In this document: piece after piece, positions 40,942 through 50,569 of the stretch
Position numbering within the stretch: position 1 is the stretch's first letter
Layout: every line of letters begins with the position of its first letter
Source of the DNA: a bacterium
Lineage (GTDB): Bacteria; Cyanobacteriota; Vampirovibrionia; Gastranaerophilales; JAILCC01
Length of the DNA: 64,000 nt
Assembly: GCA_024680555.1 (NCBI GenBank)
Contig: JAILCC010000012.1
Location: 1 to 64,000, forward strand
Direction: 5' to 3'
Made by a program: the position numbers and the translations under genes
The notes under the pieces: generated by a model
The model's input: only the letters and a program-made list of their open reading frames with translations
Database searches by the model: none
Told to the model about the DNA's origin: nothing

Positions 40942-41021
40942 TTTTTTTGTGGAAAAATTCAGTTATAATACGGGATTCAACCCTCAATTTGCTTTGCAAA
41001 TTAGGGGTTCTGTTATTTTCG
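40934..41021 (+). repeat. Diverged intergenic repeat, copy A
   Basis: Starts with the last eight tRNA bases and has a TTT-loop hairpin AATTTGC/GCAAATT at 40986-41002 flanked by AACCC and GGGGTT. Copy B at 41141-41233 has the same order with a different but still paired stem. Confidence 0.7.
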
Positions 41022-41057
41022 GATTATCGGCAACTCGCAGTGTTTGAATTCCGTTCC

Positions 41058-41131
41058 ATTTTTACTTTGTAAAAATTTCACTCCATAACCCTGCTCGTGA
41101 GGACAGCGCTCCCTGCGGTCGGCTTTGCCGA
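41058..41131 (+). repeat. Two more TTT-loop palindromes
   Basis: ATTTTTAC-TTT-GTAAAAAT (41058-41076) and TCGGC-TTT-GCCGA (41119-41131). The stretch 41085-41155 also looks like a decayed tRNA 3' half when set beside the tRNA at 40870. Confidence 0.6.
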
Positions 41132-41140
41132 AATCCTCTC

Positions 41141-43747: not shown

Positions 43748-43825
43748 ATGAACCCTTTTATCCTAAAATCTTCTTGATACTATGCATCAAATATGCTACT
43801 ATCATAGAAAAGTTAATAGTTAATA

Positions 43826-44068
43826 ACCTATAAAGAGTGTGCGAGGGACAAGCCCGTTGACCACACAGCAACCTGCAGATTTGCGGTAGAGTGAGTGAGG
43901 CAAAGCCGAACGAAACTCGTAAGAGCATTTGTTTTGCGGAGTGAAAAGTTTGCGAAAGCAAATCTTGAAACGAAGAGAAGAACAATGCACGCCCGCATAA
44001 TCAAAAACAGCAAAGGTGCTAAAGCTTGTATGATGGGTTGAAAGCAGTACTCATCATAAACGATGGGT
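43826..44068 (+). promoter_or_regulatory. SAM-I (S-box) riboswitch with enlarged P3
   Basis: All core elements are present in order. P1 is ACCTAT (43826-43831) with ATGGGT (44063-44068). J1/2 has AAAGAG. P2 is GTGTG (43837-43841) with CACAC (43862-43866), enclosing GGG/CCC and the kink-turn GA and UGA bases. GCAACC lies at 43868-43873. P3 opens with ACCTGC and closes with GCAAAGGT (44010-44017). The core GGTGCTAAA is at 44015-44023. P4 is ATGATGGG/CTCATCAT (44030-44057). The P2-loop pseudoknot ACAAG (43848-43852) pairs exactly with CTTGT (44025-44029). P3 is expanded by ~130 nt, containing AGATTTGC/GCAAATCT. Downstream, CTCTTTT (44084-44090) can pair with the AAAAGGAG ribosome site, suggesting translational control. 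Confidence 0.87.
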
Positions 44069-44109
44069 ATTTTTATTTGTGTACTCTTTTAGGTCAAAAG
44101 GAGGCACAA

Positions 44110-44868
44110 ATGAACAATGTTTTAATTCACATCCCACATAGTAGTTATCATATTCCACCGGAATACAAAAGCTTGTTTTTTCTGAAAGGGGATGACCTTT
44201 TTCAAGAACAAGTTAAAATGACTGACAGTTATACAAATGAACTGTTTGATATTAGAGGTGTTCAAAAGATTGTTTTTTCAATAAGCAGGCTTGTTTGTGA
44301 TGTAGAAAGATTCAGGAATGAAGAAGATGAAGAAATGACCAAGCAGGGAATGTGGGTATGCTATACTCGCACCTCTGACTGCAAGCCGTTAAAATTTGTG
44401 GACTATCCGCACAAACAAGAAATTCTGAAGCTGCATTATGATAAGCACCACTCTTTTTTTGAAAAACTTGTTGAACAAATGCTCAAAAAGCACAAACAAT
44501 GTTTGATTATTGATGCGCACTCGTTTTCATCTGCGCCGTTACCGTATGAGCTTCATTCGCAAAATTTTAGACCGGATATTTGTATAGGAACAGACAATTT
44601 TCACACTCCCCCTATAGTTGCTGAATACCTTTGCGAAAGCTTTTCCAAATTAGGTTATTCGGTGGGGGTAAACAACCCTTTTTGCGGAACAATTGTTCCT
44701 CTCAAGTTTTATGGCAAAGCTAAAAATGTTATGTCAGTGATGTTGGAAATAAACCGTTCGTTATACATGGATGAAAGCACCGGAGAAAAGAATTTAAGCT
44801 TTTTAAAAGTGAAACAGGATATTATGCAGGTATTGACTCTTTGTCCGTTCTTGAAAGTTGAGCCTTAA
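44110..44868 (+). CDS. N-formylglutamate amidohydrolase-like enzyme
   Basis: 252 residues of the FGase fold, which hydrolyses N-formyl- or other N-acyl-glutamate. Conserved pieces are IHIPHSSYHIPPEY near the start, SRLVCDVERF near residue 62, IIDAHSFSSAPLPYE near 137, and VMLEINRSLYMD near 220. These supply the metal ligands His, Asp and Glu. The ATG at 44110 has AAAAGGAGG upstream. It sits 41 nt after a SAM-I riboswitch, which is unexpected for a histidine-degradation enzyme. The real substrate may therefore be linked to methionine or SAM metabolism, an inference from context only. Confidence 0.82.
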   Translation: MNNVLIHIPHSSYHIPPEYKSLFFLKGDDLFQEQVKMTDSYTNELFDIRGVQKIVFSISRLVCDVERFRNEEDEEMTKQGMWVCYTRTSDCKPLKFVDYPHKQEILKLHYDKHHSFFEKLVEQMLKKHKQCLIIDAHSFSSAPLPYELHSQNFRPDICIGTDNFHTPPIVAEYLCESFSKLGYSVGVNNPFCGTIVPLKFYGKAKNVMSVMLEINRSLYMDESTGEKNLSFLKVKQDIMQVLTLCPFLKVEP

Positions 44869-44969: not shown

Positions 44970-45527
44970 ATGAAAGTTGTTGCATTCACGGGAGCAGGTA
45001 TATCAAAATCTGCAGGTATTCCCACTTTTGAAGAAGTCGATGGCTTAAAAGCAAAATTATCGGTAGAATTTAGGGATGAACATCCGCAGGAATTTGCTGA
45101 AGCGTTGAAATCATTAAAGAAAAGTGTAGAAGGAAAAGAACCGACAAAAGCCCATAAGGCGTTGGCATCATTGCCTATACCGATTATAACAATGAATGTT
45201 GACGGCTTGCACCAAAAAGCAGGTTCAAGGCAGGTGTTTGAAATACACGGTAATTACAAGGATGACAATATTGTTTTATACGGTGAGAATATTCATTTTA
45301 AAGATGAAGTGATTGCCCTTATAATAAAAACTGCCGAGGATGCCAAAAGGAACAATGAAGAAGCGGTATTTCTCATAATCGGCACTTCTATGCAAACAAC
45401 TTTTGCGGTATTTTTAGCTTTGCTTGCAAAACAAAGAGGGATGAACGTTCACTATATAAATGATAATGCCGATGAAGAAGTACCTATGTTTTTGAATAAA
45501 TACGTATTTTTACCAACGGTGTTATAA
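44970..45527 (+). CDS. Minimal Sir2-like NAD-dependent protein
   Basis: 185 residues, much shorter than ordinary sirtuins (~240). The NAD-binding motif AFTGAGISKSAGIPTF is intact. The TQNID motif reads TMNVDGLHQKAGS, and the catalytic histidine is kept in FEIHGNYKDD. The zinc module with four cysteines is absent: residues after the histidine lead straight to IIGTSMQTTFA. It may be a compact deacylase or an NAD-binding/NADase relative. GGGGAGGAT precedes the ATG. It is monocistronic between the FGase-like gene and an SGNH hydrolase. Confidence 0.75.
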   Translation: MKVVAFTGAGISKSAGIPTFEEVDGLKAKLSVEFRDEHPQEFAEALKSLKKSVEGKEPTKAHKALASLPIPIITMNVDGLHQKAGSRQVFEIHGNYKDDNIVLYGENIHFKDEVIALIIKTAEDAKRNNEEAVFLIIGTSMQTTFAVFLALLAKQRGMNVHYINDNADEEVPMFLNKYVFLPTVL

Positions 45528-47316: not shown

Positions 47317-47345
47317 TTGAACTTATGGGATAATTGTTGTACCAT
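47317..47345 (+). promoter_or_regulatory. Putative promoter of the AEP operon
   Basis: TTGAAC (47317-47322), 17 bp, then TACCAT (47340-47345). An overlapping TGGGATAAT inside the spacer is an alternative extended -10. Either lies 60-75 nt before phnW. Confidence 0.4.
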
Positions 47346-47405
47346 CTGTTTATGGAAGAAGATAAAACGGTTTTCTTTCAAAGAGAGCTTAAAACAGGGG
47401 AAGAA

Positions 47406-48539
47406 ATGGAAAAAGTAAAAAGGAATGTCTTATTAAATCCGGGGCCTGCCACAACAACCGATACAGTGAAATTTGCGCAGGTTGTTCCCGATATTTGCCC
47501 GAGAGAGGTAGAGTTTGCTTCTTTAATGAAAGGACTAAGACTGGACTTATTAAAGACGGTTAATGCAAATCCAAACAAATATACTTCAGTTTTGTTTTGC
47601 GGTTCTGGTACGATAAATATTGATATCTGTTTAAACTCTCTGCTCCCTGCGGATAAGAAAGTTCTCGTTGTAAATAACGGAGCATACAGTTCACGTGCGG
47701 TCGAGGTTTGTGAATATTATGGCTTGCCGCATATAGATTTGAAATTTTCCGTTGATGAGCTTCCAGATTTGGATTTAGTTGAAAAGACGTTAAAAGAAAA
47801 TAATGATATAGCGCTTGTCTATACAACTCACAATGAAACAGGAACAGGAATACTCAATCCTATTCGGGAAATTGGTGCTCTTGCGCATAAATATGGTGCG
47901 ATTTTTGTTGTTGATACGACTTCGACACTTGCTATGCGCCCGATTGATATAGAAAAAGATAATATAGATTTTTGTATGGCATCTGCCCAAAAGGGTTTGC
48001 AGGCTATGGCGGGTTTGTCCTTTATAATCGGAAATGAAGAAATCATTAAAAAATCAAAAGAGTATCCCAAGCGCTCATATTATTGCAACTTGTACTTGCA
48101 GTATGAATATTTTGAAAAGACAGGACAAATGCACTTTACCCCTCCCGTTCAAACGATTTATGCAACAATTCAAGCACTGAAAGAATACCTTCAAGAGGGC
48201 GAAGAAGCCAAGTGGGCAAGGCATACAAGAGTATTTAATGCAATTCATAAGGGTTTGGCGGAATTGGGATTTAAAAATGTAATTAAAAAAGAATGGCAAG
48301 CAGGGCTTGTTGTTTCCGCTATTTATCCCGATGATGAAAATTGGGATTTTGAAAAAGTTCACGATTATTGTTATGAAAGAGGCTTTACTATTTATCCCGG
48401 GAAAATTTCCACAACAAATACTTTTAGACTATGTGCTCTTGGTGCAATAGACGAAAAAGATGTTGAAGATTTCTTTGCGGTTTTTAGAGAAGCGCTGAAT
48501 AAATACAATATTGCAATACCTATAAGGTACAACAAATAG
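47406..48539 (+). CDS. phnW: 2-aminoethylphosphonate transaminase
   Basis: A PLP enzyme that interconverts phosphonoacetaldehyde plus alanine with AEP plus pyruvate. Within this operon the synthetic direction is expected. 377 residues from the ATG at 47406 (MEKVKRNVLLNPGPATTTD), with GGGGAAGAA just upstream. The family start LNPGPATT is clear. The PLP lysine lies in ASAQKGLQAMAGLSF near residue 195. The segments VYTTHNETGTGILNPI and FVVDTTSTLAMRPID bind cofactor and substrate. First gene of the operon phnW-pepM-pntC-ppd, 8 nt before pepM. Confidence 0.92.
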   Translation: MEKVKRNVLLNPGPATTTDTVKFAQVVPDICPREVEFASLMKGLRLDLLKTVNANPNKYTSVLFCGSGTINIDICLNSLLPADKKVLVVNNGAYSSRAVEVCEYYGLPHIDLKFSVDELPDLDLVEKTLKENNDIALVYTTHNETGTGILNPIREIGALAHKYGAIFVVDTTSTLAMRPIDIEKDNIDFCMASAQKGLQAMAGLSFIIGNEEIIKKSKEYPKRSYYCNLYLQYEYFEKTGQMHFTPPVQTIYATIQALKEYLQEGEEAKWARHTRVFNAIHKGLAELGFKNVIKKEWQAGLVVSAIYPDDENWDFEKVHDYCYERGFTIYPGKISTTNTFRLCALGAIDEKDVEDFFAVFREALNKYNIAIPIRYNK

Positions 48540-48547
48540 GAGTCAAA

Positions 48548-49843
48548 ATGGCAAAAGTTTATACGTGTTTTTGTACTGATTATATCCACGAAGGACATTT
48601 GAACATCATAAGAGAAGCCAAAAAGTACGGCGATGTTATTGTTGGTATTTTAAGCGATAAAGCGATGATTAAATTTAACAAATTTCCGACAGCAAATTTT
48701 TCCGAAAGAGTTGCTATTGTCAAAAATCTTAAAGATGTTTCCGATGTCGTTATACAAGATGATGTTATGTATGACAAGATAGTGGAAAATATCAAACCCG
48801 ACTATGTTATCCATGGTGATAACTGGTGCTCAGGACCGATGAAAGCCATAAGGGATAATGTTGTTGCTCTGATGGAAAAAACAGGTGGCAAAGTTATTGA
48901 TGTGCCTTATACAAAAAGTGAGCAGGTACAGCTTCTTGATGCCAAAAATGAATTAAAACGCTCTATGCCGGAATACAGAAGAAAAATGTTGAAAGAGCTT
49001 ATTAACTTGAGAGATGTAGTAAAAACCATTGAAGTTCACAGCGGTTTAACAGGTTTGATTGCGGAAAAAACTATTGTAGAAAACAACGGCGAATTAGACC
49101 AGTTTGATGCAATGTGGATTTCTTCTCTTTGCGACAGTACCGCAAAAGGCAAGCCCGATATTGAGCTTGTTGATATGACCTCAAGATTTAGAACGATTTC
49201 GGATGTTATGGAAGTAACAACTAAGCCGATTATTTTTGACGGAGATACAGGCGGACTTATTGAACACTTTGTTTATACGGTGAGAACCCTTGAAAGAATG
49301 GGTGTTTCCGCAATTATTGTGGAAGATAAAATCGGTCTGAAAAAGAATTCGTTGTTCGGTACCGAGGTTAAACAAACTCAAGATACCATAGAACATTTCT
49401 GCGAAAAAATTAAAGCAGGCAAAAAAGTTCAACTTACTGATGACTTTATGATTATTGCTCGTATTGAAAGTCTTATCCTTGAGCAAGGTATGGAAGATGC
49501 TCTGACAAGGGCGCACGCATTCGTTCAGGCAGGTGCGGATGGTATAATGATTCACAGCCGTAAAAAAGATCCCGCTGAAATTCTTGAATTTTGTGATAAA
49601 TTCCGTGAAGTCAACAAAAGCACTCCGATTGTCGTTGTTCCGTCATCATTTAACACAATTACGGAAGCGGAACTTGCTGAGCACGGTGTAAATATTGTTA
49701 TTTATGCAAACCAGCTTACGAGAGCTGCTTTCCCTGCGATGGAACAGGTTGCAAAAGATATTCTTAAATATCACAGAGCTAAAGAAGTTGATGACAGGCT
49801 TATGCCCATAAAGCAGATTATTTCACTGATTGATGAATTGTAA
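48548..49843 (+). CDS. pepM: Phosphoenolpyruvate mutase with N-terminal cytidylyltransferase-like domain
   Basis: Makes the C-P bond by converting phosphoenolpyruvate to phosphonopyruvate. 431 residues. The first ~135 are a nucleotidyltransferase-fold domain with the HxGH motif in DYIHEGHLNIIREAKKYGD. The mutase barrel follows, with the Mg-binding IIFDGDTGG near residue 230 and the diagnostic loop EDKIGLKKNSLFG near 258. ARIESLILEQGMEDAL and VVVPSSFNTITEAEL complete the family pattern. The extra domain is known from other mutases and lacks a proven role; the separate transferase next door suggests it is not the only nucleotidyl step. AGGAG precedes the ATG. Confidence 0.95.
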   Translation: MAKVYTCFCTDYIHEGHLNIIREAKKYGDVIVGILSDKAMIKFNKFPTANFSERVAIVKNLKDVSDVVIQDDVMYDKIVENIKPDYVIHGDNWCSGPMKAIRDNVVALMEKTGGKVIDVPYTKSEQVQLLDAKNELKRSMPEYRRKMLKELINLRDVVKTIEVHSGLTGLIAEKTIVENNGELDQFDAMWISSLCDSTAKGKPDIELVDMTSRFRTISDVMEVTTKPIIFDGDTGGLIEHFVYTVRTLERMGVSAIIVEDKIGLKKNSLFGTEVKQTQDTIEHFCEKIKAGKKVQLTDDFMIIARIESLILEQGMEDALTRAHAFVQAGADGIMIHSRKKDPAEILEFCDKFREVNKSTPIVVVPSSFNTITEAELAEHGVNIVIYANQLTRAAFPAMEQVAKDILKYHRAKEVDDRLMPIKQIISLIDEL

Positions 49844-49852
49844 GGAACAAAT

Positions 49853-50569
49853 ATGACAAACGCAATTCTTATGGCATCAGGACTTGGAACAAGGATGCGC
49901 CCATTAACAAATACAACCCCGAAACCGTTGATAAAAGTGGGCGGAACACCTATGATTGAAACTGTTATCGAGGCTTTGAAAAACCAAAATATGGAAAATA
50001 TTTATGTGGTTGTTGGCTATCTTGGTGAACAATTTGACTATTTAACCGCAAAATATCCTAATGTCCGCATTATTAATAACCCCGACTACAAAACGGTAAA
50101 CAATATTTCTTCAATTTATTATGCTTCAAAAGAGCTGCTTGGGAGTGATTGTTTTATTTGCGAAGCTGATTTGTTTATATCGGACAAAAATATTTTTAAT
50201 ATTAAAGAAAAATACTCGGGATATTTTGGAAAAATGGTAGAAGGTCATTCTGATGACTGGGTATTTGATGTAGCTCAAGACGGCTATATAACAAGAGTCG
50301 GCAAGGTTGGAAATAACCAATACAATATGGTTGGTTTATCGTATTTTACAGCAGATGATGCCAAAATTTTATCCGAAGCAATAATAAGTGCTTACGGGAA
50401 AAAAGGTTACGAAGATTTATTTTGGGATGATGTCGTAAATAATAATTTGGATAAATTAAAGCTAAAAATTCACCCCGTATCTGCGTCACAAATTGTTGAA
50501 ATCGATACGACGGAAGAATTAGAACAGATAAACAGAGAGGTTCAAAATGGAAGCAGAAAAATTAGTTAG
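49853..50569 (+). CDS. pntC: CTP:2-aminoethylphosphonate cytidylyltransferase (PntC/LicC-like)
   Basis: 238 residues of the sugar-nucleotidyltransferase fold close to phosphocholine cytidylyltransferase LicC. The nucleotide-binding motif is ILMASGLGTRMRPLTNTTPK at residues 5-24, then PLIKVGGTPMIE. CEADLFISD near residue 103 carries the metal-binding aspartate. Given its place between pepM and ppd, the likely reaction is CTP + AEP to CMP-AEP, as shown for PntC enzymes; choline phosphate is the main alternative. It starts 9 nt after pepM with AAGGAA and overlaps ppd by 23 nt. Confidence 0.82.
   Translation: MTNAILMASGLGTRMRPLTNTTPKPLIKVGGTPMIETVIEALKNQNMENIYVVVGYLGEQFDYLTAKYPNVRIINNPDYKTVNNISSIYYASKELLGSDCFICEADLFISDKNIFNIKEKYSGYFGKMVEGHSDDWVFDVAQDGYITRVGKVGNNQYNMVGLSYFTADDAKILSEAIISAYGKKGYEDLFWDDVVNNNLDKLKLKIHPVSASQIVEIDTTEELEQINREVQNGSRKIS

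Follow-up and report, generated by a model that had tools for sequence, protein, structure and literature searches.

A SAM-I riboswitch upstream of an FGase-family gene in a Gastranaerophilales genome holds a copy of a dispersed structured repeat in its P3 arm

Riboswitch and neighbouring genes

The window analysed here is a stretch of 64,000 nucleotides from a metagenome-assembled genome (MAG) of a gut-dwelling relative of the cyanobacteria in the order Gastranaerophilales (G000; 1.79 Mb, 25 contigs, 87% complete). It contains a SAM-I riboswitch in the 5' leader of an FGase-family gene, preceded by a candidate promoter (Table 1); a similar TTGATA...TAGTAT arrangement can be seen by eye upstream of the related leader L003. 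The match to Rfam family RF00162 (cmscan of the window, E 4.5e-10) spans the full model, positions 1-108, and is interrupted in P3 by a gap of 128 nt; a genome-wide scan found this copy as the single SAM-I of its own genome. An earlier note on this DNA had proposed a SAM-I riboswitch with all S-box core helices drawable and an ACAAG/CTTGT pseudoknot, and our results bear out these three points, with the qualification that the partner of P1 is ambiguous, GATGGGT being present twice. The locus shares with other SAM-I members a full-length match above the gathering threshold, the conserved core, the pseudoknot and the leader position.

In siblings of the order the letters of the pseudoknot differ but stay complementary (ACAGG/CCTG, ACTGG/CCAG), so that the helix covaries and the pseudoknot is supported. 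The conserved base of P3, which in known structures lines the SAM pocket, is intact in the window aptamer despite the insert described below. The aptamer is a putative SAM binder.

Table 1. Features of the leader, its target gene and a further repeat copy (window coordinates).
Feature	Position	Strand	Evidence or remark
Second copy of the repeat family, intergenic	41021-41136	-	Model R1, 40.2 bits
Candidate sigma-70-like promoter TTGATA-17-TACTAT, extended -10	43774-43802	+	Consensus scan, 9/12 matches
P1 5' strand TAACCTAT; doubles as 5' part of the proposed antisequestor, which extends to 43842	43824-43831	+	8 bp with 44033-44040, 6 bp with second GATGGGT copy
SAM-I riboswitch aptamer (RF00162) with P3 insert	43825-44069	+	55.4 bits, gathering 44.4
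Pseudoknot half in P2 loop, ACAAG	43848-43852	+	Complement of 44025-44029; covaries in siblings
P3 5' strand GCAACCTGC	43868-43876	+	RF00162 alignment; insert-free leaders L003, L014, L048
Inserted structured repeat: outer stem 43878-43886/43993-44002 and two inner arms	43878-44002	+	Genome copies, model R1, covariation
AAAAACAGC, degenerate version of the AAGACAGC linker that joins tandem repeat copies elsewhere	44003-44011	+	Flank comparison
P3 3' strand GCAAAGGTGC	44010-44019	+	RF00162 alignment
Pseudoknot half in J3/4, CTTGT	44025-44029	+	Sequence; sibling comparison
First GATGGGT copy: P1 3' strand (proposed SAM-bound state) or half of P4/antiterminator-like hairpin	44031-44040	+	Folds, pairing counts
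Terminator-like hairpin (TACTCATC/second GATGGGTA), U-rich tail	44046-44078	+	Consensus scan; 77% in computed ensemble
SD-sequestering hairpin; anti-SD 44079-44093, SD AAAAGGAGG 44096-44104	44076-44110	+	Pair probability near 1 at most positions
FGase-family amidohydrolase gene (PF05013)	44110-44868	+	150 bits

Elsewhere in the order, many SAM-I riboswitches (L021, L025, L028, L033, L035 and others) precede short genes without an accepted Pfam family; clear U-tailed hairpins are frequent there, and the classical metK leaders form a separate group. In locus L029 (1501-2832), an IS1595-type transposase gene lies directly downstream of a SAM-I riboswitch.

A dispersed repeat within the P3 arm

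The spacing between AACC and GGTGCTAA is 140 nt in the window, as against 10-27 nt in 37 other SAM-I RNAs of the order. Among the matches listed (50, in 383 genomes), the window SAM-I is the longest (245 nt, next 154) and the insert is seen in the source genome only. Long, non-conserved "variable insertions" that leave the core undisturbed are a known feature of riboswitches (PMC2258182), and the earlier note had taken this one to be a P3 enlargement belonging to the switch itself. Our results show a different situation: the insert belongs, as a well-preserved copy, to a structured repeat of about 80-130 bp that is dispersed over unrelated sites and absent from the sister riboswitches, rather than being a private P3 domain. 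A nucleotide search of 43868-44016 against its own genome retrieved three further places with 83-89% identity, all of them matching the insert alone, without the riboswitch part. Alignment of these copies with relatives places the boundaries of the element at GGATTTGCGGTAG (start) and CCCGCATAATCC (end).

The covariance model built for the repeat family (R1) gives 141 bits for the window insert, which lies in model orientation and is among the best-preserved of the 13 matches in its own genome (E up to 0.01). Other genomes hold several identically scoring copies. Of 97 genomes sampled from the order Gastranaerophilales, 51 hold matches to R1; in a phylum sample of 386 genomes, 104 carry the repeat, all 104 of them belonging to that same order, with no match outside it. 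Searched against Rfam with E up to 5, the insert region returned SAM alone, plus a chance-level miRNA match lying outside the insert, and we found no description of the family in the catalogues searched. The copies are mostly intergenic and occupy many unrelated sites; some come immediately behind stop codons within ribosomal-protein operons, and others form tandems joined by an 8-nt linker (AAGACAGC). Additionally, sense-direction copies were observed inside ribosomal-protein and secE-region operons (L066, L072, L075, L080, L082, L091), several of them 2-6 bases past the stop codon.

The family has a common fold. RNAalifold on six copies yields 38 pairs, 11 of them with changes on both sides; in 48 aligned copies, 36 of the 38 pairs change on both sides, 93.8% of cells are paired (66.6% when shuffled, 31-47% in controls slid by 1-3 columns) and the covariation score is 0.578 as against 0.167 for shuffled alignments. 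This 48-copy alignment was fitted to the model and therefore leans towards structure; a MAFFT alignment of six copies, not fitted to the model, has compensatory changes in the same helices. The element ends in terminal inverted repeats, which form the outer stem GGATT-TGCGG/CCGCA-T-AATCC with 98% of cells paired. In the window, this covariation-supported stem joins GATTTGCGG (43878-43886) to CCGCATAATC (43993-44002). A AGATTTGC/GCAAATCT stem had been drawn in the insert before; it is rejected, since covariation favours other partners and places GCAAATCT in an inner hairpin of its own. As for the GGC-AAA-GCC hairpin that had also been described, a hairpin is indeed there, but as the variable tip of an inner arm. 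G-U pairs make up 2.5% of the paired cells (48 copies), which in our judgement is low for a structural RNA and hints at selection or copying at the level of a DNA hairpin rather than as RNA.

In several respects the family resembles the known small palindromic repeats, namely ERIC, REP/BIME, BOX/RUP and the Rickettsia palindromic elements (reviewed in PMC10969869): it is an imperfect palindrome of about 80-130 bp, mostly intergenic, multi-copy and found in tandems with short linkers. It differs from the ERIC/REP/BOX class in that the insert lacks an Rfam match and the matches in the phylum sample are confined to one order. It also differs from REP elements: the Y1 transposase family PF01797 is absent from five of eight carrier genomes, including the source genome, and present in three. 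Mobilisation by a RAYT/REP system was accordingly rejected for the source genome. No obvious target-site duplication is present at the window site or at the three other copies, and the ACAGCAA motif flanking the repeat was discarded as a candidate, its right copy being explained by the linker of the repeat itself.

The FGase leaders of three other genera (L003, L048 and L014/L049) carry the same riboswitch, pseudoknot and Shine-Dalgarno hairpin without the insert, reading AACC-10 nt-GGTGCTAA. These ordinary 10-nt P3 arms indicate that the repeat entered the loop of P3 without disrupting the aptamer. In line with this notion, the P3 strands of the window, CCTGC...GCAAAGG, resemble those of the sibling L018 (CCTGCTTAAAAGCAAGG), so that insertion into such a terminal loop is the most likely event. 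The insert would form an independently folded extension of P3 that points away from the SAM pocket; most likely the switch tolerates it without making use of it.

It could be argued that the switch has recruited the insert as a functional element, altering the time of co-transcriptional folding or binding a protein and thereby changing the response of the switch. The good preservation and model orientation of the window copy point that way, but they equally fit a recent insertion; likewise, copies between co-directional genes are more often sense (16 vs 5), but this count includes orthologous sites and its entries are not independent. Given, moreover, the 10-nt P3 of the sister leaders and the many unrelated intergenic sites occupied by other copies, we regard adoption as unlikely. 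That a repeat copy was misjoined into P3 during assembly is very improbable: the MAG has 25 contigs, repeats are typical misassembly points and the insert is restricted to the source genome among the matches listed, but a misjoined copy is expected to be nearly identical to another one, and this copy reaches at most 89% identity with any other found in the genome, within a riboswitch that is unbroken on both sides and whose P3 strands match.

The closest precedent is the pneumococcal trp region, in which a BOX element lies between two upstream T-box riboswitches (PMC3049150). In both cases a dispersed repeat is co-transcribed within a riboswitch leader, which nevertheless seems to remain functional. 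However, the BOX element sits between two aptamers, whereas the repeat in the window sits inside a helix of a single one, and both the repeat family and the host are different. Our search for papers describing a dispersed repeat within the helix of a riboswitch returned none; it covered open-licence literature and is weak evidence for that reason.

Expression platform and switching direction

GATGGGT occurs twice in the window leader, from 44032 and from 44062, with its complement TACTCATC in between. With the P1 5' strand, the first copy can form 8 bp and the second 6 bp; across the FGase leaders the first copy allows 8, 8, 9 and 7 bp, and the second 6 bp where resolved. In the minimum-energy fold of the window leader, P1 is closed by the first copy, followed by a U-tailed hairpin (44046-44071) and the SD hairpin (44076-44110). 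The folds of L003 and L048 agree with that of the window for P1 and the SD hairpin; the computed fold of L014 uses the second GATGGGT copy together with P4. A hairpin is present in the P4 region and competes with the fold in which P1 takes the first copy; in this the window leader may depart from the usual SAM-I, its P4 hairpin possibly doubling as an antiterminator.

The ribosome-site hairpin proposed before at 44084-44103 is present, with a pair probability near 1 at most positions, and is larger than had been drawn; the translational output proposed with it is supported as well. It also changes between sister leaders from GTGT/ACAC to GTGC/GCAC. An alternative, antisequestor pairing of CCUAUAAAGAGUGUGC with the anti-SD GUGUACUCUUUUAGG reaches -17.0 kcal/mol in the window and -17.3 to -20.1 kcal/mol in the sisters, is conserved over 15-18 bp in all four distinct FGase leaders (the L014 and L049 leaders being the same, and the window included), and is matched in strength by 4 of 2000 shuffles of the region. 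When it is enforced, the four leaders lie 1.9 to 9.2 kcal/mol above their minimum-energy folds (three of them within 5), in an energy model that includes neither SAM nor the pseudoknot.

These pairings allow us to propose a model of the switch. With SAM bound, P1 would close, the next hairpin with its U-rich tail would form and the anti-SD would pair with the SD, turning expression off. Without SAM, the aptamer 5' strand CCUAUAAAGAGUGUGC would pair with the anti-SD, leaving the ribosome site free. The output would thus be both transcriptional and translational. For translational SAM-I control there is a precedent in Xanthomonas (PMC7270179).

The presence of two GATGGGT copies, with an aptamer that can be drawn with or without P4, means that the direction of switching is not proven by sequence. 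In the opposite scheme the aptamer would include P4 and close P1 on the second copy, so that SAM would break the U-tailed hairpin and raise expression. Infernal does align the full model, P4 included, to the window and to the sister leaders; siblings have a U-rich tail behind the second copy, and L014 adopts the P4 version in its computed fold. On the other side, the FGase leaders offer P1 a better pairing with the first copy, the SAM-I riboswitches known from methionine genes act as OFF switches, and the SD hairpin would then be left without an obvious release. We consider a SAM-ON switch improbable, and an OFF switch is the most likely arrangement in the window.

The FGase target and implications

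In contrast to the usual SAM-I riboswitch, that of the window controls an FGase gene instead of a methionine gene. The earlier note had described the next gene as N-formylglutamate amidohydrolase-like, which agrees with its PF05013 match, and the H-x-P-H, D-x-E-R-F and D-x-H-S motifs are conserved among the homologues compared. The protein shares this common Pfam family with HutG, but differs from it in its SAM-riboswitch control and in scoring 42.6 bits with the HutG equivalog model (TIGR02017, NCBIfam), far below the cut-off of 278.75; a HutG function was rejected on that basis. An origin as a phage gene was likewise set aside, with a single distant phage match at 31.6% identity. In two genera the FGase gene has a short SIR2-like gene as its neighbour, which lies downstream in the window (44970-45527) and upstream in L048 (743-1291), the latter assigned by sequence likeness only. 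Further along the window (47334-50569), genes for a class V aminotransferase, a PEP mutase/cytidylyltransferase and a nucleotidyltransferase stand in a row that resembles the 2-aminoethylphosphonate pathway.

FGase orthologues turned up in just 4 of 383 genomes, and hence there are few leaders to compare. Those of G058, G273 and G140 (L003, L048 and L049) share 69-71% identity with the window protein, and each of them retains a SAM-I leader. In addition, a lake MAG labelled Streptomyces griseus (L017) carries a SAM-IV riboswitch (101.3 bits) followed, in one run on one strand, by a substrate-binding protein, a permease and an ATPase of an amino-acid-type ABC transporter and an FGase homologue; this link comes from one locus. 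The suggestion that the gene is an unusual regulon member is strengthened by both the SAM-I pairing kept in other genera and the SAM-IV pairing in this actinobacterial MAG. A SAM-I-IV match near an rRNA operon in L004 (41.7 bits, gathering 41.1) was marginal and was not used.

That two riboswitch classes for one ligand precede members of one enzyme family points toward a methionine-linked function, and suggests a methionine-linked salvage role for this FGase subfamily. Its probable reaction is the release of methionine from an N-formylated or N-acylated form; the earlier note, too, had raised an N-acyl-methionine-type substrate. A literature search returned nothing on SAM riboswitches together with N-formylglutamate, nor on N-formylmethionine together with N-formylglutamate.

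Taken together, our findings make it likely that the locus is a SAM-I OFF switch on an FGase gene, with a repeat inserted and tolerated in P3, and an enzyme that probably frees methionine bound as an N-formyl or N-acyl derivative. The riboswitch belongs to an established class, and its target is unusual yet of a known regulatory kind. The stronger joint statement, that a dispersed selfish repeat with its own conserved multi-arm fold became part of a working SAM-I P3 and that this switch controls a hitherto unassigned N-formyl-/N-acyl-methionine salvage enzyme, is one we put forward only tentatively. If true, "variable insertions" of riboswitches can arise through repeat insertion. The origin of long riboswitch insertions is seldom traceable, and here the donor family, insert-free sisters and the insertion point are all visible. 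Two leads follow for the order and the enzyme family: (i) a large structured repeat family in Gastranaerophilales without a matching Rfam model and (ii) a possible methionine-linked role for an FGase subfamily, backed by two classes of SAM riboswitch.
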